A stretch of DNA of 64,000 bases, from positions 1 to 64,000 of the forward strand of contig CANQOH010000002.1 of the NCBI GenBank assembly GCA_947625425.1. The letters are read 5' to 3'. The stretch's first letter is position 1. Each line of letters begins with the position of its first letter. Under the pieces are notes generated by a model, which saw nothing but the letters and a program-made list of their open reading frames with translations, did not search any database and was not told where the DNA came from. The translations under genes and the position numbers were made by a program. Below are positions 22,299 through 41,035 of this stretch, one piece after another. The stretch is from an uncultured Bacilli bacterium (lineage in GTDB: Bacteria; Bacillota_I; Bacilli_A; RF39; UBA660).

Positions 22299-23165
22299 AT
22301 GAACAATAATAAAATAAAATTTATCTCCCTTATGCAAGATATTGTCTTTAAAACGGTATGGCAAAGTGAGGATGAATTAATTAAAAGATATTGGAATAGA
22401 TTATTACAGTATATAGTAGGGTTAGATACTAGTAGCTATAACTTAACAATGAATGAATTACCCATAAATAATATTGAAAGTATTTCAAGCAGAGTAGATA
22501 TTTTACTTGAGTCACCAAAAAACCCTATTAAGATAAATATCGAATTAAATCCTATTAATAAGAAAACAACCCATAATAAAAATAATAGTTATTTATATAA
22601 GATTGCTGGTGAGATGTACAAAAAGAATAGTGAAATGATTTATGATAAAAATATCAGAATAATTCAAATCAATTTTAATGGTTTTTATCATAAAGATCAT
22701 AATTATCCTATATCACGATATAAATTATATGATAAAAAGAAAAGAGATACTATTAAAGATATAGAAATCATTAATATTTATTTACCAGTATTTAAAAAAC
22801 TATGTTATACTAAAGACAATGAAATATATAAGGATTTTGCTATGTTTGAAGCTAAAAGTTTTGAAGAAATGTCAAAATATGTAAGTAATGATGAAAGTAG
22901 GAGGAAAGTTATGGAAAAATTATCAAGAATTATAATCGATAAAGATGTTCCAACATATGATTATGGAGCATATTTAGATGCTTTACATAAAGAAGTAGCA
23001 CGTGATGCTCATAAAGAAGGTCTTAAAAAAGGGATCAAAGAAGGTCGCAAAGAAGGTCGCAAAGAAGGACAAAAAAATATCATAATTAAACTAATATCAA
23101 GTGGTATGTCTAAAGAAGAAATATCTCAAAGACTTAATATTCCCATAAATAAAATTAATATCTAA
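22299..23165 (+). CDS. Rpn-family PD-(D/E)XK nuclease / putative transposase
   Basis: 288 residues. Rpn proteins are DNA endonucleases that promote RecA-independent recombination; some are called transposases although no transposon is needed. The nuclease core is seen in SSRVDILLESP followed by IKINIELNPINKK (about 67-90), giving the D...E-x-N/K arrangement. The C-terminus has the characteristic KEGxKKGxKEGRKEGRKEGQ linker and a small HTH-like tail (GMSKEEISQRLNI). SD GAAGGAG. No terminal inverted repeats or target duplication seen around it. It occupies the position just upstream of sigG. Confidence 0.85.
   Translation: MNNNKIKFISLMQDIVFKTVWQSEDELIKRYWNRLLQYIVGLDTSSYNLTMNELPINNIESISSRVDILLESPKNPIKINIELNPINKKTTHNKNNSYLYKIAGEMYKKNSEMIYDKNIRIIQINFNGFYHKDHNYPISRYKLYDKKKRDTIKDIEIINIYLPVFKKLCYTKDNEIYKDFAMFEAKSFEEMSKYVSNDESRRKVMEKLSRIIIDKDVPTYDYGAYLDALHKEVARDAHKEGLKKGIKEGRKEGRKEGQKNIIIKLISSGMSKEEISQRLNIPINKINI
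23023..23064 (+). repeat. Short tandem repeat inside the Rpn gene
   Basis: A 12-bp unit close to AAAGAAGGTCGC is repeated about three times and encodes KEGR repeats, as is common in Rpn linkers. Confidence 0.7.
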
Positions 23166-23226: not shown

Positions 23227-24000
23227 ATGTATAATAAAAAAGTTGAAATACCAGGTATAAATACTGGTACTTTAAAAACTTTAAGTAATGATGAAATGAC
23301 TCGTTTATTTATTGAAATGAAAAATGGTAGTAAAGAAGCTAAAGATAAATTAGTCGAAGGTAATTTAAAACTTGTCCTAAGTATTTTAAAACGTTTTAAA
23401 ACTAATGCTAATAATATCAATGATATGTTTCAAATAGGGTGTATTGGTTTAATTAAAGCCATTGATAACTTTGATTTAAGTTTAAATGTCTGTTTTAGTA
23501 CTTATGCTGTCTTCTTAATCAAAGGTGAAATCTTAAGAGCTTTCCGTGATGAAACTCCTATTAGAGTAAGTCGTAGTACTAAAGATATCGCTTATAAAAT
23601 CTTAGCTTATAAAGAAAAATACTATAATACCTATGGTACAGAACCAACTAATAGTGAAATTGCTAAAGAACTAGGTATTGAAGAATACTTTATTTCTTAT
23701 GCCCTAACTAGTTTAAAAGAACCAATAAGTATTCATACCCCAATCTATAATGATGGTGGTGATACTATCTATCTTTTAGATCAATTATCTAATCCCAAAC
23801 CAGAATATGATCGTGAAACACTATTATTACTTAGAAAAGCACTAAGTAAATTAAAAGATCGTGAACGCAAGATAATTTATAGTAGGTATATTATCGGTAA
23901 AACCCAAACTGAACTCAGTGAAGAACTTCATATCTCTCAAGCCCAAGTATCACGTATAGAAAAAACGGCATTAGAAAATATAAAAAGACTAGTGAAATAA
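23227..24000 (+). CDS. sigG: Sporulation sigma factor SigG
   Basis: 257 residues. SigG drives late gene expression in the forespore of endospore formers. Alignment by memory to B. subtilis SigG is strong: KVEIPGINTGTL at the N-terminus, EGNLKLVLSILKRF, DMFQIGCIGLIKAIDNFDLS (region 2.1-2.2), FSTYAVFLIKGEI and RDETPIRVSRSTKDIAYK (2.4-3.0), IYNDGGDTIYLLDQ, and region 4 with TQTELSEELHISQAQVSRIEK. SigF is the nearest alternative, but the N-terminal KVEI-x-G and IYNDGGD match SigG. ylmC follows as in B. subtilis, while spoIIGA-sigE is not upstream; an Rpn gene is there. Confidence 0.88.
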   Translation: MYNKKVEIPGINTGTLKTLSNDEMTRLFIEMKNGSKEAKDKLVEGNLKLVLSILKRFKTNANNINDMFQIGCIGLIKAIDNFDLSLNVCFSTYAVFLIKGEILRAFRDETPIRVSRSTKDIAYKILAYKEKYYNTYGTEPTNSEIAKELGIEEYFISYALTSLKEPISIHTPIYNDGGDTIYLLDQLSNPKPEYDRETLLLLRKALSKLKDRERKIIYSRYIIGKTQTELSEELHISQAQVSRIEKTALENIKRLVK

Positions 24001-27301: not shown

Positions 27302-27922
27302 CTATAAACTACGATATAAACCAATGGCTTTACCTAAAATAGTACAATTTTCTAAAATAATAGGACTCATTGTATCATTTTCAGGTTGCAATCTAATATG
27401 ATCTTTTTCTTTATAAAAAGTCTTTAATGTTACATCACCATCAGGAGTCATTGCCACAACTATTTCACCATTACGTGCAACATTTTGCTTTTGAACTATA
27501 ACTATATCTCCATCATAAATTCCTTTGTTAATCATTGATTCACCATTAGCCTCTAAAGTAAAAATTGTTTCTTTAGCCGGAATTAAACTAGCCGGTAAAG
27601 TAAACCATTCATCTGGGTTTTCAATAGCTTCAATTGGATTACCACAAGCCACCTTACCAAGTAAAGGAACTTTAACTAAATCTTCATGCTTCTTCGCATA
27701 TTCATTTTCCCCAACTATTTCAATTGTTCTAAATTTTGAATTAGCTTTACGAATACATCCAGCATCTTCAAGTTTTTTTAAGTGAGAATGAACCGTAGCA
27801 GGGGAAGATAATCCAAGAGCTGAACCGATTTCTCTTGTTGAAGGTGGATATCCATGATCAACAACGTATTTTTTAATATAGTTAAGAACATCTTCTTGTC
27901 TTTTTGTAATATTCTTTTCCAT
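27302..27922 (-). CDS. lexA: LexA repressor
   Basis: 206 residues. SOS repressor that cleaves itself when RecA is activated by ssDNA. N-terminal winged HTH (about 1-65: RQEDVLNYIKKYV, PPSTREIGSALGLSSPATVHSHL) and C-terminal S24 peptidase domain. Cleavage site is VACGNPI, with Cys93-Gly94 instead of the usual Ala-Gly; Ser129 (NGESM) and Lys167 (DVTLK) form the catalytic dyad. SD GGAGG. The promoter (TTGACT-17-TATGAT) overlaps a LexA-box-like palindrome, which implies autoregulation. It is divergent from a small membrane protein gene as in B. subtilis lexA-yneA. Confidence 0.96.
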   Translation of the reverse strand: MEKNITKRQEDVLNYIKKYVVDHGYPPSTREIGSALGLSSPATVHSHLKKLEDAGCIRKANSKFRTIEIVGENEYAKKHEDLVKVPLLGKVACGNPIEAIENPDEWFTLPASLIPAKETIFTLEANGESMINKGIYDGDIVIVQKQNVARNGEIVVAMTPDGDVTLKTFYKEKDHIRLQPENDTMSPIILENCTILGKAIGLYRSL

Positions 27923-27939
27923 ATCTTACCTCCAACATA

Positions 27940-27968
27940 ATCATATCATAATCGAGTAGATAAGTCAA
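27940..27968 (-). promoter_or_regulatory. lexA promoter
   Basis: On the minus strand: TTGACT (27968-27963), 17-bp spacer, TATGAT (27945-27940). The -35 is overlapped by a LexA-box-like site. Confidence 0.8.
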
Positions 27969-27979
27969 ACAAATGTTTT
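27966..27979. promoter_or_regulatory. LexA box at the lexA promoter
   Basis: CAAACAAATGTTTT (full palindromic context CAAACAAATGTTTTTG) matches the Bacilli type CGAAC-N4-GTTCG with A for G in the arms. Confidence 0.7.
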
Positions 27980-28044
27980 TGTTAGTTAATTAACACTCCT
28001 CAAACCTCATCTTTATTTACTTGTCAAATTAAATTGTCAAAATG

Positions 28045-28058
28045 CAAACAAATGTTTA
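28045..28058. promoter_or_regulatory. LexA box in the lexA/small-gene gap
   Basis: CAAACAAATGTTTA, same core (AAACAAATGTTT) as the box at 27966, placed just upstream of the -35 of the divergent small gene. Confidence 0.65.
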
Positions 28059-28067
28059 TTTTTTATA

Positions 28068-28096
28068 TTGACACGAACAAGTGTATGTAATATGAT
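28068..28096 (+). promoter_or_regulatory. Promoter of the small SOS membrane protein gene with LexA box in its spacer
   Basis: TTGACA (28068-28073), 17-bp spacer, TATGAT (28091-28096). The spacer holds CGAACAAGTGTATG (28074-28087), a LexA-box-like site, so bound LexA would block RNA polymerase. Confidence 0.75.
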
Positions 28097-28121
28097 AGAG
28101 ATGGTAAAAGGAGTGAGGTAA

Positions 28122-28259
28122 ATGAAAAATAGTGAAACAATAAAGAATGTGGCAGGAATTATCCTTCTTTATCTAGTTATCATACTAGGTGTTGTTGCTA
28201 TGGATGCCCGAATGGAGGTTATCAATAACAATCAAAATATTGCTTCATTACAGAATTAA
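28122..28259 (+). CDS. Small single-pass membrane protein in the yneA position, candidate SOS cell-division inhibitor
   Basis: 45 residues, SD AAAGGAGTGAGG. A short cytosolic head (KNSETIKN) is followed by one TM helix (about 9-26, GIILLYLVIILGVVAM) and a short tail (RMEVINNNQNIASLQN). It has a strong LexA-controlled promoter and lies divergent from lexA in a block whose later genes are tkt, sirA and yneF. In B. subtilis this place is held by yneA and in Staphylococcus by sosA, both small membrane proteins that halt division during SOS. The product lacks the LysM domain of YneA and I see no direct sequence match, so the role is inferred from context. Confidence 0.75.
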   Translation: MKNSETIKNVAGIILLYLVIILGVVAMDARMEVINNNQNIASLQN

Positions 28260-28281
28260 TATCAGGCAACTGATATTTTTT
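28258..28281 (+). terminator. Terminator of the small SOS gene
   Basis: ATATCAG (28259-28265) / CTGATAT (28270-28276), GCAA tetraloop, T-run; begins in the stop codon. Confidence 0.8.
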
Positions 28282-28307
28282 CTATTTTAAAAAAAATTAA
28301 TATATTG

Positions 28308-28313
28308 TATAAT
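28308..28313 (+). promoter_or_regulatory. -10 element of the glucosyltransferase gene
   Basis: TATAAT 21 nt before the start codon. Confidence 0.55.
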
Positions 28314-28333
28314 CAACATAAGAGGTTAAATAT

Positions 28334-29473
28334 ATGAAAAAAAGAATACTACTAACTTATGCAATGTATGGTAATGGCCATCGTGCTATTGCTGAATACA
28401 TTCAAAGTTATTTTAAAAAGCAAGATCCTGAACTTGAAATTCTTGCCATAGATATATTAAAATATTCAACTCCTATCTTAGGAAGTATAAGTCAAAAAGT
28501 AACAGATTTCTTTTTATTAAAATTTCCTATTGGTTGGTCTTTTATATATGATTTATTTGATACTAAAATTAGTGCAGCTATTGCTAATCACACTAGTATG
28601 AGTTTATTTAAAAATAAAAGAATGAAAAAAATTATTAGTGATTTTAATCCTGATATGACTATTTCAACGCACTTCTTTGGTAGTAGTTTAATTGAATATT
28701 ATAATCGTAAAGGTGTAATTAATTCTAAGTTAATAACCGTTGTTACTGATTATGAAGCTCATACTCTATGGTTAAGAGGCTATAAAACAGAACAAGCTAT
28801 CTTTGTTGGTGATAAAGATGAAGTAAACTACTTAGTTAAAAAAGGTGTTAAAAGAAGCATTATTAAACCTTATGGTATTCCTATTCACCCGACTACAAGT
28901 GTTGATTTTGATGTAATAAAAGCTACTGAAAGATATGGCTTTGATGGCTCAAGACCAATCTGTTTATTCTTTGGTGGCGGCGGTAATGGTGGAACTCATT
29001 CCTTACCATATATTCGTAAAATAATCAAAAGTAATTTAAATATTGATTTTATTTATGTTGCTGGTAAAAACCAAGCAGCTAAAGAAAAAGTAGATAATTG
29101 GATTAAAGAATATGATGTTAAAAATATGAAAACTTTAGGTTTTGTTAATAATGTTCCCGAACTACTTCAAATATGTGATTTTGTTGTTTCTAAACCAGGT
29201 GGTGCTCAAACTACTGAAAGTTTATACTTTAAAAAACCAGTTATAATGATAAATTGTAGTGGTGGTCAAGAAATAGGTAATATTAAATATTTTGAAAAAC
29301 ATGGTTATGGTAAACGCTTTAGAACATCATTTATGTTTAATAGATATATGCAACACATCTCTGATAATCCTAAAATAATATCTGAAATGCAAAAAAATAT
29401 GGCTACTAATACCAATGATAAAGCTATGGCTAAACTTTATGAAGTCGCTACGAAATGTTTAAAAGAGAAGTAA
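28334..29473 (+). CDS. UgtP/MGDG-synthase-like processive diacylglycerol glucosyltransferase
   Basis: 379 residues. GT28-type glycosyltransferase that adds sugar from a UDP donor to diacylglycerol, making membrane glycolipids and the lipid anchor of lipoteichoic acid. Motifs: YGNGHRAIAEYI at the N-terminus (membrane/acceptor side), TDYEAHTLW, LFFGGGGNGG (about 214-223), SKPGGAQTTES (about 290-300) for donor binding, and INCSGGQEIGN. It is inserted between the lexA side and tkt compared with B. subtilis. The LtaS-type gene at 56304 gives a plausible downstream user. Confidence 0.85.
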   Translation: MKKRILLTYAMYGNGHRAIAEYIQSYFKKQDPELEILAIDILKYSTPILGSISQKVTDFFLLKFPIGWSFIYDLFDTKISAAIANHTSMSLFKNKRMKKIISDFNPDMTISTHFFGSSLIEYYNRKGVINSKLITVVTDYEAHTLWLRGYKTEQAIFVGDKDEVNYLVKKGVKRSIIKPYGIPIHPTTSVDFDVIKATERYGFDGSRPICLFFGGGGNGGTHSLPYIRKIIKSNLNIDFIYVAGKNQAAKEKVDNWIKEYDVKNMKTLGFVNNVPELLQICDFVVSKPGGAQTTESLYFKKPVIMINCSGGQEIGNIKYFEKHGYGKRFRTSFMFNRYMQHISDNPKIISEMQKNMATNTNDKAMAKLYEVATKCLKEK

Positions 29474-29541: not shown

Positions 29542-31527
29542 ATGAACCCTGATGCAACTCATTCGTTAAATAGCTTAAGAATTCTAAGTATAGATATGAT
29601 CTCATATGCCAAGAGTGGCCATCCTGGTATTTGTTTAGGAGCCGCTCCAATTATGTTTGCGACTTATGTCGATAATTTAAATATTCATCCCGCTGATCCT
29701 AAATGGCCTAATCGTGACCGCTTTGTTATGAGCGCTGGCCATGGATCTGCCTTACTATATGCCATGTTATTTATGGCTGGTTATGATATCTCTATTGATG
29801 ACTTAGTTGATTTCCGTCAAATTGATTCTAAAACTCCAGGTCATCCTGAATATGGTGTAACTCCAGGTGTTGAAACTTCAACTGGACCATTAGGTCAAGG
29901 TTTTGCCAATGCGGTCGGAATGGCTATTACTGAAAAATATCTAGCTAGTTTATTAGAAGAAGAATTACCTAAACAAAAACTTATAAATTATTATGTTTAT
30001 GCTCTAGTAGGTGATGGCGATTTAATGGAAGGTATCGCTAATGAAGCCGCTTCCATTGCTGGTCATCTCGGTCTTGATAACTTAATTGTTTTATATGATT
30101 CTAATGATATTACTTTAGATGGTGATTTAAAAAGAGAAAGTAGTGAAAACATCATTCAAAAATTTATTACCTTAGGTTGGGAAGTTGACTTTGTTCCAGA
30201 AGGTAATGATTTACGTGAAATAAATAAAGCTTTAACTCGTGCAAAAATAAATAAAAAACCAACTTTAATTGAAATCAAAACAGTTATTGGTCGTGGCTCT
30301 TATTACGAAGGTAAAAACCTTGTTCATGGTAAACCTTTAAATAAAGATGATATGATTAATATTCGTAAAAAATATAATATTCCTACTAATACAATGGAAA
30401 TAACTGAAAATGCCGTTAAATATGTTCGCGAAAGCATTAAAAATCGTACTGAACATAATTATCGTAATTGGCAACAATATTTTACCAATATCAAAAATAG
30501 TAATCCTAATGAAAACTTAAAAAAATTATTAGACTTTATTGAAACTGGTGAAGTAAACATTCCATTTAGTAGTGCTAACTTTAAAATTCAAAATAACTAT
30601 AGTGAAGAACTACGTGAATCAAATTCAAAAATGATGAATATTATTAGTGATCGTAATAAGTTATTCTTAGGTGGTAGTGCTGACTTATCAACTTCCTGCC
30701 ATACTGGTTTATTAAAAGAAGTCGATTTTAGTAAGAAAGATCCAATGGGTCGTAACCTTAATTTCGGTGTCCGTGAGCATGCTATGGGTGGTATCTTAAA
30801 TGGTATGGCTTTATCTGGTCTTCGTGTTTTTGGTTCAACCTTCTTAGTTTTTGCTGATTATTTAAAACCAGCAATTCGTATGAGCGCTTTAATGAATCTA
30901 CCAGTAACTTATATATTTACTCATGATTCAGTTAGTATAGGTCAAGATGGACCAACTCATGAACCAATTGAACAATTAGCTATGCTAAGAACAACTCCTA
31001 ATTTAACTGTCTTCCGTCCCGCTGATATCAATGAAGTAATCGGTTGTTGGGATTATATCTTAGAAAATAAAAAACCAGTTGCTATCGTTTTATCTAAAGA
31101 TGAAGCTCATATCTTAGATGGTACAAATGGTGAATCAGTTAAAAAAGGTGCTTATATAATTCGTAAAGAAACACAAAGATTAGATGCTGTCTTAATAAGT
31201 ACTGGTATTGATTTAACAACTACCTACTTAATAAGTGAAGAATTAAGAAGTAAAGGTATCGATACTCGATTAGTATCAATGCCATCAGTTGAACTATTCT
31301 TAGCTCAAAATAAAGAATATCAAGATTCTATTATTCCACCAACTGCTAAAGTCTTTACTGTTGAAGCTAGTGCTACATTACCTTGGTATCGTTTTGCTTC
31401 CCGTAATTGCGCAATAGGAATTGATACCTTTGGTTATAGCGGTAAAAAAGCTGATGTTCTAAAAAAAGTCGGCTTCGATTACGATTCTATAATGAAAAAA
31501 ATTGAAGAAAATATCAAAAATAATTAA
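29542..31527 (+). CDS. tkt: Transketolase
   Basis: 661 residues, normal length. TPP-dependent enzyme of the pentose phosphate pathway that moves two-carbon units between sugar phosphates. Motifs: SGHPGICLGAAPI (about 25-37), SAGHGSALLYA, TGPLGQGFANAVGMA, the TPP motif GDGDLMEGIANEA to YDSNDITLDG, and FGVREHAMGG plus THDSVSIGQDGPTHEP in the pyrimidine domain. Located between the lexA area and sirA as in B. subtilis. Confidence 0.97.
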   Translation: MNPDATHSLNSLRILSIDMISYAKSGHPGICLGAAPIMFATYVDNLNIHPADPKWPNRDRFVMSAGHGSALLYAMLFMAGYDISIDDLVDFRQIDSKTPGHPEYGVTPGVETSTGPLGQGFANAVGMAITEKYLASLLEEELPKQKLINYYVYALVGDGDLMEGIANEAASIAGHLGLDNLIVLYDSNDITLDGDLKRESSENIIQKFITLGWEVDFVPEGNDLREINKALTRAKINKKPTLIEIKTVIGRGSYYEGKNLVHGKPLNKDDMINIRKKYNIPTNTMEITENAVKYVRESIKNRTEHNYRNWQQYFTNIKNSNPNENLKKLLDFIETGEVNIPFSSANFKIQNNYSEELRESNSKMMNIISDRNKLFLGGSADLSTSCHTGLLKEVDFSKKDPMGRNLNFGVREHAMGGILNGMALSGLRVFGSTFLVFADYLKPAIRMSALMNLPVTYIFTHDSVSIGQDGPTHEPIEQLAMLRTTPNLTVFRPADINEVIGCWDYILENKKPVAIVLSKDEAHILDGTNGESVKKGAYIIRKETQRLDAVLISTGIDLTTTYLISEELRSKGIDTRLVSMPSVELFLAQNKEYQDSIIPPTAKVFTVEASATLPWYRFASRNCAIGIDTFGYSGKKADVLKKVGFDYDSIMKKIEENIKNN

Positions 31528-31580: not shown

Positions 31581-31991
31581 ATGCGTACATATTATGTTTT
31601 TAAAATCAAAGAACCCTATTCAAACTTAACTAAATCTTCACCATATAATTTATATAAAGTACTAGAAAACATTTACTATTTAAATAGTGATCAAATAACT
31701 ATTGCTTATAATTTCTTTAGTCAAATAAGAGATTACTTTAATAAAGAAAAACTCGATAATAACATTTATAAATATTATAAAAACAAAGATAACTATAGTA
31801 AGATAAACTATACTCATATGATATATGATTATTTTACGAAAGAAAAAACTAAACTAATAATTAATAAATCATATCTTTATCTTAAATCAACTAAAGAAAT
31901 TCCTACATTCCTAAAAACTCTCTCTAAAAAAGATAATTTATTTGTTTGTGACTTTACTAACAAAGATTACTTTTGGCTTGAAGAAATATAA
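31581..31991 (+). CDS. sirA: SirA-like sporulation inhibitor of replication initiation
   Basis: 136 residues. B. subtilis SirA binds domain I of DnaA and stops new rounds of replication once sporulation begins. Similarity by eye is at both ends: RTYYVFKIKEPYSN at the N-terminus and LSKKDNLFVCDFTNKDYFWLEE at the C-terminus, with weak conservation between them, typical for this family. The place between tkt and yneF is exactly that of sirA (yneE) in B. subtilis. The leader has a candidate 0A box and an RBS-covering hairpin. Sequence divergence is high, so position is an important part of the call. Confidence 0.75.
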   Translation: MRTYYVFKIKEPYSNLTKSSPYNLYKVLENIYYLNSDQITIAYNFFSQIRDYFNKEKLDNNIYKYYKNKDNYSKINYTHMIYDYFTKEKTKLIINKSYLYLKSTKEIPTFLKTLSKKDNLFVCDFTNKDYFWLEEI

Positions 31992-32050: not shown

Positions 32051-32260
32051 ATGCTTGCAGATATATTACAAGTCGGAATAGGTCTTATTATTGGTTTAGT
32101 AATTGGTTTCTTTGTTGCCAGATATTTCTTTAAAAAACAAATTGAACAAAATCCTCCAATCAATGAAAAAATGATTGAAGCTATGATGAGTGGAATGGGA
32201 AGAAAACCTAGTCAAAAACAAGTAAGACAAATAATGCAACAAATGAATAGATACAAATAA
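32051..32260 (+). CDS. yneF: YneF-family (UPF0154) small membrane protein
   Basis: 69 residues; one N-terminal TM helix (GIGLIIGLVIGFFVARYFFKK) and a cytosolic tail with the family hallmark INEKMIEAMMSGMGRKPSQKQVRQIM. Function is unknown although the family is widespread in Bacilli and Mollicutes. SD AAAGGAG. Confidence 0.93.
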   Translation: MLADILQVGIGLIIGLVIGFFVARYFFKKQIEQNPPINEKMIEAMMSGMGRKPSQKQVRQIMQQMNRYK

Positions 32261-38725: not shown

Positions 38726-39637
38726 ATGTTAATAATTGGTAGTCATGTTTCTTTTGGTAAGGATCAAATCTTAGGTTCTCTAAAAGAAGCTTTAAGTTAT
38801 AATGCTAATACCTTTATGTTTTATACTGGAGCTCCAACTAATACCATTAGAAAAGATATTGAAGATAAATATATCGAAGAAGCTTTAACGCTTATGCAAG
38901 AAAATAATATCGATATTAATAATGTCGTATGTCATGCCCCATATATTGTTAATTTAGGTAGTAAAAAAGATCTATCCAAATATGAATTTAGTATTAACTT
39001 TATTCGTAATGAACTTAAAAGATGTGATGAAATGCATATAACTAAAATGGTCTTGCATCCAGGTAATGCCGTTGATATCACTAAAGAAGAAGGTTTAAAT
39101 AACATTGTTGAAGCTTTAAATACTATTTTAGATGGTACTACTAAATGTAAAATCTTACTTGAAACCATGGCCGGTAAGGGTAGTGAATGTGGTTGTACTT
39201 TAGATGAAATAGCATATCTTGTTAAAAATACTCATAAACAAGACCAAATTGGTGTCTGCTTAGATACTTGCCATTTATTTGATGGTGGTTATGATATAAG
39301 TGATTTTGATTCATTCTTAAAAGAATTTGATACCAAAATAGGTTTAGATAAAATAGGTTGTATTCATATTAATGATTCTAAAAATGTTTTAGGTTCTCAT
39401 AAAGACCGTCATGAAAATATCGGTATCGGTAATATTGGTTTTAATAATTTAATTAAAATAATTTATCATGACAAACTAGCTAATGTTCCTAAAATCTTAG
39501 AAACGCCATATATTGGTGAGAATGATGAAGATAAAGAAAGAATCTATCCACCATATCGCTTTGAAATCGAAATGATTCGTAACAAAGAATTTGATCCGGA
39601 TTTTAGAAATAAAATTAGAGCTTATTACAAGAAGTAA
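38726..39637 (+). CDS. nfo: Endonuclease IV (AP endonuclease)
   Basis: 303 residues. Zn-dependent TIM-barrel enzyme that cuts 5' of abasic sites in base excision repair. Metal-binding positions are in IGSHVSFGKD, CHAPYIVNLG, LHPGNAVD, LLETMAGKG, CLDTCHLFDGGYD and IHINDSKNVLGSHKDRHENIG. SD AGGTGAT. It is followed by rarA, making a small DNA repair neighbourhood. Confidence 0.95.
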   Translation: MLIIGSHVSFGKDQILGSLKEALSYNANTFMFYTGAPTNTIRKDIEDKYIEEALTLMQENNIDINNVVCHAPYIVNLGSKKDLSKYEFSINFIRNELKRCDEMHITKMVLHPGNAVDITKEEGLNNIVEALNTILDGTTKCKILLETMAGKGSECGCTLDEIAYLVKNTHKQDQIGVCLDTCHLFDGGYDISDFDSFLKEFDTKIGLDKIGCIHINDSKNVLGSHKDRHENIGIGNIGFNNLIKIIYHDKLANVPKILETPYIGENDEDKERIYPPYRFEIEMIRNKEFDPDFRNKIRAYYKK

Positions 39638-39664: not shown

Positions 39665-39692
39665 TTAACAAACAAATGTATTATGATATAAT
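39665..39692 (+). promoter_or_regulatory. rarA promoter
   Basis: TTAACA (39665-39670), 16-bp spacer, TATAAT (39687-39692) with TGA in front. The spacer holds a LexA-box-like sequence. Confidence 0.6.
39669..39682. promoter_or_regulatory. LexA-box-like site in the rarA promoter
   Basis: CAAACAAATGTATT shares the first 11 bases with the two boxes at lexA and lies between -35 and -10. Confidence 0.6.
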
Positions 39693-39715
39693 AACATTAA
39701 TCAAAGGTGATATTT

Positions 39716-41035
39716 ATGGAAAACTTATTTAGTGAATTAGAAATGGATGTTTATAAACCTTTAGCTGAAAAAATGCGTCCACAATCTTTAGATGACTTTA
39801 TTGGACAAGAAGAAGTAGTAGGACCTAATTCTCCCTTACGTGAAATGATTGAAAATGACTTAGTTACTTCAATGATTTTTTGGGGCCCTCCAGGAGTTGG
39901 TAAAACTACTTTAGCTAAAATAATTGCTAATAAAACTAATTCTGTCTTTAAACAACTTAGTGCTGTAACAGCTGGTGTTAAAGATATCAAAGAAATAATT
40001 ACCGAAGCCGAATTTAATAAAGCAAGTGGTAGAAGAACCATTTTATTTGTTGATGAAATTCATCGTTTTAATAAAGCCCAACAAGATGCTTTCTTACCAT
40101 ATGTTGAAAGTGGTGACATTATCTTAATCGGAGCTACGACCGAAAACCCATCATTTGAAGTTAATAGCGCTTTACTATCAAGAACTAAAGTCTATGTTCT
40201 AAATAGTTTATCTGAAGAAGATATAAAAAAAGTTATAACTAATGCGATAAATAAAGAAAATGAAAATTCCAAAATAAAAATAAGTATTAAAGATGATGCC
40301 TTATCAGCTATTGCTACTTTAAGTAATGGGGACGCTAGAAACGCTTTAAATACTTTAGAAAATATTATAAATATCACCCCAACTAAAGCTAATAAAAAAG
40401 AGATAACTAAATCTTTAATTTCTAAAATGGTTAATAAGAAAACATTCCTTTATGATAAAAAAGGGGAAGAACATTATAACTTAATTTCGGCCTTACATAA
40501 ATCAATGCGTAATAGTGATCCTGATGCCGCTTTATATTACTTAGCCCGTATGTTAGAAGCCGGTGAAGATCCTTTATATGTTGCTCGTCGTTTAATTCGT
40601 TTTGCTTCTGAAGATATTGGTCTTGCTAATCCTAGTGCTTTAGTCCAAGCCACATCGGCTTATGAAGCGGCTCATTATAATGGCATGCCAGAATGTAATG
40701 TTAATCTTGCGCAAGCTGTTGTTTACCTAAGTGTTTCACCTAAATCAAATTCTTTATACACAGCATATGAAACTGTTAAAAAAGACGCCTTACGTACTGC
40801 TGATGTTAAAGTCCCATTAGATTTACGCAATGCCGTTACTAAACTAGATAGTGAATTAGGTTATGGTGCTAACTACCAGTATGCCCATAATACCGAAAAT
40901 AAAATAACTAACATGCAGTGTTTACCAGATGAATTAAAAGATAAAAAATATTATCATCCATCAGATATCGGTAAAGAAAAAGGTATCAAAGAAGAACTAG
41001 CTCGTATCGAAAATATTAAAAAGAATCTTAAATAA
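39716..41035 (+). CDS. rarA: Replication-associated recombination protein A (RarA/MgsA)
   Basis: 439 residues; start 39716 after AGGTGAT. AAA+ ATPase of the clamp-loader clade that acts at stalled replication forks. Motifs: [14 protein letters not shown], Walker [10 protein letters not shown] (about 56-64), Walker [16 protein letters not shown], sensor 1 GATTENPS, and the tetramerisation tail [14 protein letters not shown] with YHPS near the end. The promoter carries a LexA-like site, so DNA-damage induction is plausible. Confidence 0.95.

Follow-up and report, generated by a model that had tools for sequence, protein, structure and literature searches.

A conserved single-helix microprotein gene divergent from lexA in gut Bacilli, with homologues in phages: a candidate SOS division inhibitor

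A gene of 45 codons, lying divergent from lexA in a 64,000-nucleotide stretch of DNA from an uncultured Bacilli bacterium (the window hereafter), belongs, judging by its conservation, to a real gene family of gut Bacilli, and the arrangement of its promoter gives good support to LexA-type control. We consider it reasonably probable that this LexA-repressed bitopic microprotein arrests cell division, probably at the septal FtsW complex, in the manner of YneA, SosA or SidA; it is placed among the SOS membrane division inhibitors because of its position, control, predicted topology and phage distribution. The course of events that we infer would begin with LexA sitting on the box within the promoter spacer and holding the gene off until DNA damage and RecA remove it, whereupon a short mRNA would give rise to a 45-residue membrane protein with its N-terminus inside and a tail of ~20 residues outside. 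The microprotein would then delay division until repair is finished, its helix most likely packing on a transmembrane (TM) helix of the septal synthase (the FtsW/PBP2B complex), and would afterwards be degraded, the partly conserved C-terminal end possibly being the turnover signal; the homologues in early regions of phages would act likewise during induction. Neither a description of the microprotein family nor any account of an SOS checkpoint on division in these gut Bacilli, most of them uncultured and with small genomes, was found in a literature search outside of which lay most subscription papers and all preprints.

The lexA-divergent gene, its promoter and its neighbours

A sequence-only reading of the window had described a small frame divergent from lexA, a LexA-like box in the spacer of its promoter and two more boxes in the same gap, and had likened its place to that of yneA and sosA, all of which was borne out (Table 1). 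The frame, with its Shine-Dalgarno site, forms a divergent pair with a gene that TIGR00498 identifies as lexA (224 bits, the cut-off being 111), which is the yneA/sosA position, and its promoter is the best of 6 promoter-like sites in 27850-28400, shuffles of which average 3.6. The three boxes of the gap are the top LexA-type sites among the 63,987 positions of the window when scored with a weight matrix to which 64 relatives, but not the window, contributed their boxes (chosen as the sites best fitting the consensus CGAACNNNNGTTCG), the next site, at 39669, scoring 11.7. This fourth-best site (39669-39682) lies where the promoter of a RarA/MgsA-like ATPase gene (39707-41035, by eye) would be expected; that gene comes after an endonuclease IV-like gene (38726-39637, by eye) and is likely to be a further SOS gene.

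Table 1. Features around the lexA-divergent gene, in window coordinates
Feature	Position	Strand	Remarks
lexA	27302..27922	-	206-aa repressor, HTH + S24 peptidase; TIGR00498, PF01726, PF00717
Probable lexA promoter, TTGACT-17-TATGAT	27940..27968	-	Promoter scan; -35 hexamer overlaps box 1
LexA-like box 1, CAAACAAATGTTTT	27966..27979		Matrix rank 1 (15.4)
LexA-like box 2, CAAACAAATGTTTA	28045..28058		Matrix rank 2 (15.0)
Microprotein promoter, TTGACA-17-TATGAT	28068..28096	+	11/12 matches; same architecture in relatives
LexA-like box 3, CGAACAAGTGTATG, filling promoter spacer	28074..28087		Matrix rank 3 (14.1)
Shine-Dalgarno AAAGGAG	28107..28113	+	Read from sequence; 8 nt 5' of ATG
Microprotein ORF	28122..28259	+	45 aa, ATG start, single TM, N-in/C-out predicted
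Terminator-like hairpin, 8 pairs, then T run	28258..28281	+	Fold -7.9 kcal/mol
MGDG/UgtP-type glycosyltransferase	28334..29473	+	PF06925 over cut-off; NF010135 below cut-off
Transketolase tkt	29542..31527	+	TIGR00232 over cut-off
SirA (yneE), sporulation inhibitor of replication	31581..31991	+	PF10747, 34.5 bits, cut-off 26
YneF / UPF0154	32051..32260	+	PF03672 over cut-off

A similar box precedes recA, which was found in 24 of 26 genomes: of 24 loci scanned, all 23 with upstream sequence carry one 57-97 nt upstream (a single strand being scored), 20 of these boxes scoring at least 12.4 and the other three 6.0-7.5 at the same place. In five relatives (L020, L023, L027, L015 and L025), the -10 region of the microprotein promoter itself lies within a second LexA-like palindrome, CGATATAATGTTCG, so that the promoter of this subgroup would be covered by two overlapping boxes.

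As the hairpin and T run sit 3' of the stop codon, the mRNA is probably short and monocistronic, with a leader of ~20 nt from the putative start site; the terminator scan, which demands 3 G-C pairs, returned none for this gene. The window's gene order, lexA-X-glycosyltransferase-tkt-sirA-yneF, is similar to that of B. subtilis, which we take to be lexA-yneA-yneB-ynzC-tkt-yneE-yneF, with tkt, yneE/sirA and yneF common to both. The window organism probably sporulates, since SirA is kept by tkt and yneF, and a SigG-like gene (23227-24000, below the TIGR02850 cut-off) is present as well. An Rpn-family nuclease/transposase-like protein (TIGR01784, below cut-off) is encoded at 22299-23165.

Conservation, selection and protein features

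The sequence-only reading had held that a frame not conserved in relatives would refute its proposal; the frame proved to be conserved. A LexA search of genome contigs, from which the best 80 of 545 loci were taken (labelled as MAGs of uncultured Bacilli, Erysipelotrichaceae/Erysipelotrichales, Tenericutes, Firmicutes, Mollicutes, Mycoplasma and Clostridium, with L059, Candidatus Pelethosoma and the sole named genus, filed under Mycoplasmatota), left 78 usable ones, L001 and L003 breaking off less than 100 nt from lexA. In 64 of these 78, a divergent, Shine-Dalgarno-preceded single-TM frame of 34-54 aa adjoins lexA, the frames and start codons having been picked by the analyst from mechanical candidates. 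Another gene separates lexA from the frame in three more (L015, L025 and L072), where the LexA-box promoter (by eye) precedes the frame and is absent from the lexA-adjacent stretch; in L015 and L025, a 100-aa frame on the lexA strand, by eye a membrane protein, lies between the two. In a fourth, L068 (genome G144), the frame is found on a different contig, beside a tkt-like gene, and has a TTGACA-box promoter ~106 nt upstream, so that the gene is present in 68 of the 78 genomes, 64 times adjacent to lexA and four times apart from it with the box promoter kept. The remaining ten (L002, L019, L022, L028, with just 293 nt of upstream sequence, L066, L074, L076, L077, L078 and L079) are without it, and a wider search of six of their genomes (G015, G017, G115, G133, G178 and G202) gave no convincing copy.

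A strict TTGACA-plus-box test was passed by 57 of the 65 loci with an adjacent frame (window included), the eight failures having altered -35 hexamers; where no frame adjoins lexA, which is so at 14 loci, a promoter-embedded box beside lexA is likewise missing in every case. As a control, 549 other TM-type short frames of the 80 loci were scored against the family profile, and the only three above 15 bits are the displaced copies of L015, L025 and L072.

When a profile of the 68 members (A1) was run against 193 genomes from the family of the nearest relative, the best E fell below 1e-5 in some 57 of them (a count by eye); at a loose limit of E 1, 192 of the 193 match, which is meaningless. We inspected 83 matches, comprising the 30 top-scoring ones and 53 more selected chiefly because their frames are short. 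A divergent lexA accompanies 73 of them on the stretch retrieved (27/30 and 46/53); the exceptions are six prophage-like copies (L108, L118, L178, L181, L187 and L190), two matches at contig breaks that retain the box (L121 and L180), the G144 copy again (L174) and an unassigned 35-mer, L176. Within the genus, nine of 15 genomes match the window protein and six gave no match; the nine main matches adjoin lexA with variants of the composite promoter. A pattern for this promoter alone, derived from the family itself and searched over an order some of whose genomes overlap the training set, occurs in 98 of 288 genomes, with one match in the table for the reversed control; lexA adjoins all 30 of the matches fetched, a frame of 30-75 codons follows at short distance in 29, and 22 of those frames exceed 15 bits; in the rest, the architecture is kept but the sequence has diverged or is unrelated. 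Four such short hydrophobic frames (L258-L261), beside lexA under the same promoter and at 5-8 bits against the profile, may reflect very fast divergence or replacement.

At the level of the nearest relative's class, 15 of 296 genomes match at E 1e-5; as 14 of these were already in the family or order lists, no spread beyond family and order is claimed. A protein search with the window's 45-mer returned the query itself and three close relatives, single-protein scans of this kind detecting close relatives only and being weak on absence. Three matches were set aside, namely L139 (part of a longer frame), L207 from IMG/VR (inside a 754-aa antisense frame) and L286 from the class search (within a 652-aa frame, probably by chance).

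Purifying selection on the microprotein is supported by comparison with nine congeners, the dN/dS check suggested in the sequence-only reading giving 0.18-0.43 (with six of the nine pairs exceeding a dS of 1.3). Fewer amino-acid changes than under random placement were seen in five of six pairs tested (P <= 0.0005), the closest pair, L129, not being significant alone (P 0.10); the pairs cannot be treated as independent. For the full set of pairs, pN/pS is 0.53, and differences at codon positions 1, 2 and 3 number 136, 76 and 184.

The protein is, as had been read from the window, a TM helix with short tails and no LysM: one TM segment was found, and Pfam, NCBIfam and PHROGs gave no match for the window protein. 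None of the 68 members matches LysM (Pfam and NCBIfam, E 0.01) or a division-suppressor model (NCBIfam, E 0.01, a library that may or may not hold a YneA model), and the near-threshold Pfam, NCBIfam and PHROGs matches of single members look like matches to TM composition and were rejected. AlphaFold2 builds the single chain as one helix of residues 3-38 (mean pLDDT 79.5, pTM 0.44). The N-in/C-out topology is predicted from a charge bias seen in 55 of 65 members (equal in 4, opposite in 6), and the C-terminal tail has a median of 20 residues (range 5-29). Besides the start, conservation is highest at residues (numbered as in the window protein) 10, mostly Y though V in that protein, 17 (Y), 23 (G), 30 (R) and 35 (N); in column 44, near the C-terminus, N occurs in 31 of 57, and the window has Q.

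A single TM helix under LexA might also be an SOS-induced membrane toxin that depolarises or otherwise disturbs the membrane and leaves damaged cells dormant. E. coli has such peptides in TisB, which is LexA-controlled, antisense-RNA controlled and forms an amphipathic helix, and in DinQ, neither of which is known to be a neighbour of lexA. The size of the microprotein fits, and DinQ is likewise described as a LexA-controlled single-TM peptide under antisense-RNA control (PMC3567139). The TM core of the family, however, is uncharged in 62 of 65 members, unlike an amphipathic helix, and the short leader leaves little room for an RNA-antitoxin site; a look-up for an antisense or leader RNA antitoxin gave one weak 9/12 antisense promoter-like site and no Rfam match over the gathering score. 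With a fixed lexA-adjacent place and purifying selection, which better fit a housekeeping brake, a toxin of this kind seems decidedly unlikely to us.

Phage and prophage homologues

That the family is shared with phages is the most surprising part of the finding. Strong homologues are present in five lineages, the prophages L108/L201, L118/L200 and L138/L203 and the IMG/VR sequences L204 and L205/L206 (the last two carrying an identical microprotein sequence); they score 29-47 bits with a profile built without them, and each beats all 2000 region-wise shuffles. Weaker prophage copies (L197, L198, L199 and L202) reach 19-24 bits, with 3, 0, 12 and 0 of 2000 shuffles as good, respectively; as the 35-residue L176 has 20.5 bits with 0 of 2000 shuffles as good, scores near 20 bits, such as theirs, are no proof alone.

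The homologues sit in early regions, where 18 of 20 scanned neighbour genes match named PHROGs (repressors, Erf/RecT annealing proteins, DnaD-like loaders/replication initiators, DnaB helicase, SSB, integrases and an endolysin-like peptidase). The next gene after the microprotein is a replication initiator or loader in L197, L198, L199, L201 and L202, looks like one by eye in L203, and matches a PHROG of unknown function in L200; in L205/L206 the replisome organiser comes five genes on. Seven of the prophage copies were examined for a LexA box upstream, and none was apparent. In L203, the S24 portion of the prophage repressor aligns with the LexA model (61.6 bits, under its cut-off); the repressor also matches phrog_4, and this S24/LexA-like match suggests RecA-triggered release of that prophage. 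IMG/VR scans starting from the proteins of L138, L200 and L197 yielded no confirmed homologue, and the L204 protein found only itself there and nothing by tblastn in 50,697 phage records, such single-protein scans again reaching close relatives only and saying little on absence.

We tentatively propose, with rather less than even confidence, that a single family of microproteins, induced by damage and arresting division, is common to gut Bacilli and the temperate phages that infect them. LexA would run the host copy, whereas the phage copy lies in the early region and, in L203, near the S24/LexA-like repressor, so that RecA could unlock both and the prophage could prolong the division block while replicating. 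The same distribution, strong in five phage/prophage lineages and weaker in four more, might point to a phage-derived or phage-directed function, the microprotein being either an early membrane protein of phages that the host has domesticated or one of the host's own that affects prophage induction or superinfection, and the tree of 84 rows does not cleanly part phage from host copies. With 45 of its 81 inner branches open, however, that tree is too poorly resolved for the direction of host-phage transfer, and the host copy, nearly always at lexA in the genomes that have it, looks vertical; a phage role would, moreover, be compatible with division arrest. A phage-derived or phage-directed protein is, in our estimation, very unlikely.

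Possible mode of action and known systems

As a TM helix has few sequence constraints, the function has to be judged mainly from position and control. The presumed target is encoded in the relatives, a SEDS match being present in all 63 genomes searched, and a Ctp-type protease exceeded the cut-off in 16 of 18. Ten SEDS proteins were classified: six (L242, L244-L247 and L249) have FtsW as the best NCBIfam match, all below cut-off, and L241 and L248 have SpoVE as the best match with the FtsW cut-off exceeded; two spore-formers classified have three SEDS proteins each, SpoVE-, FtsW- and RodA-like by best match. Genomes without the microprotein still carry a protein with FtsW as its best match, so the presence of FtsW alone is not predictive.

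The microprotein might, instead, be a small regulator in the membrane that is under LexA control but has a target outside division, be it a protease, a transporter, the neighbouring lipid glycosyltransferase or sporulation, given that small bitopic proteins often modulate larger membrane proteins. It is missing in three of four presumed non-spore-formers (genomes with at most three SigG-model matches) and in seven of 59 others (Fisher p 0.011), which would suit a link to sporulation; phylogeny and gene loss, however, confound this link, each of the four genomes having a single SEDS match (in the three without the microprotein, FtsW by best match), and the early phage copies do not suggest sporulation. 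Nor is there a fixed partner downstream, the gene 3' of the microprotein varying between loci (glycosyltransferase, tkt, sirA, yneF and others; tblastn, by eye), and we regard such a regulator as unlikely.

Should the division-arrest reading be true, lexA-adjacent division brakes would be more widespread, and could be far smaller, than YneA and SosA indicate: little more than a short-tailed TM helix lacking any domain that binds the wall, for which the question of how a bare helix stops the septal synthase becomes testable. The phage homologues would show a brake common to host and virus. With the composite promoter there is also a route to fast-evolving members that sequence searches miss.

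Some phage genes halt host division, lambda Kil among them, and Kil and DicB are cytoplasmic and directed at FtsZ or MinC. The phage microproteins resemble these in kind, if they arrest division as proposed, and differ in being single-TM proteins related to a host SOS gene; DicB of Qin is a phage gene stopping host division (PMC10448788). With TisB and DinQ, the family has in common its probable LexA control and a single TM segment, and differs in its uncharged TM core, antisense RNA control being theirs.

YneA of Bacillus and Listeria is alike in its divergence from lexA, a LexA box in the promoter (by sequence), an N-terminal TM segment and an outside tail (predicted here), and differs, as compared by description, in its LysM domain and much greater length. 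YneA reaches the divisome via its TM helix and TM7 of FtsW, and the B. subtilis TM segment without LysM localises faintly at midcell and binds FtsW without inhibiting division (PMC13396833), so that a TM-only microprotein must act otherwise. SosA of Staphylococcus shares the divergence from lexA, the single TM segment, the lack of LysM and an outside tail; it has 77 aa, with the TM segment at 10-30 and a long extracellular tail essential for activity (PMC6851548), against a total of 34-54 aa and a tail of ~20 aa here. The family libraries gave no match placing the microprotein with either. The earlier suggestion of a minimal version of the same idea stands as regards the yneA/sosA place and the LexA-type control. 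It is weakened as a minimal YneA by the failure of that protein's isolated TM segment to inhibit division (PMC13396833), and SosA likewise needs its tail (PMC6851548). Closest in size and build, again by description, is SidA of the alphaproteobacterium Caulobacter, an SOS-induced inner-membrane inhibitor of 29 aa that interacts with FtsW (PMC4211646), in the available part of whose paper lexA adjacency is not mentioned. The microprotein would, therefore, seem to be best compared with SidA in build and with YneA and SosA in place.
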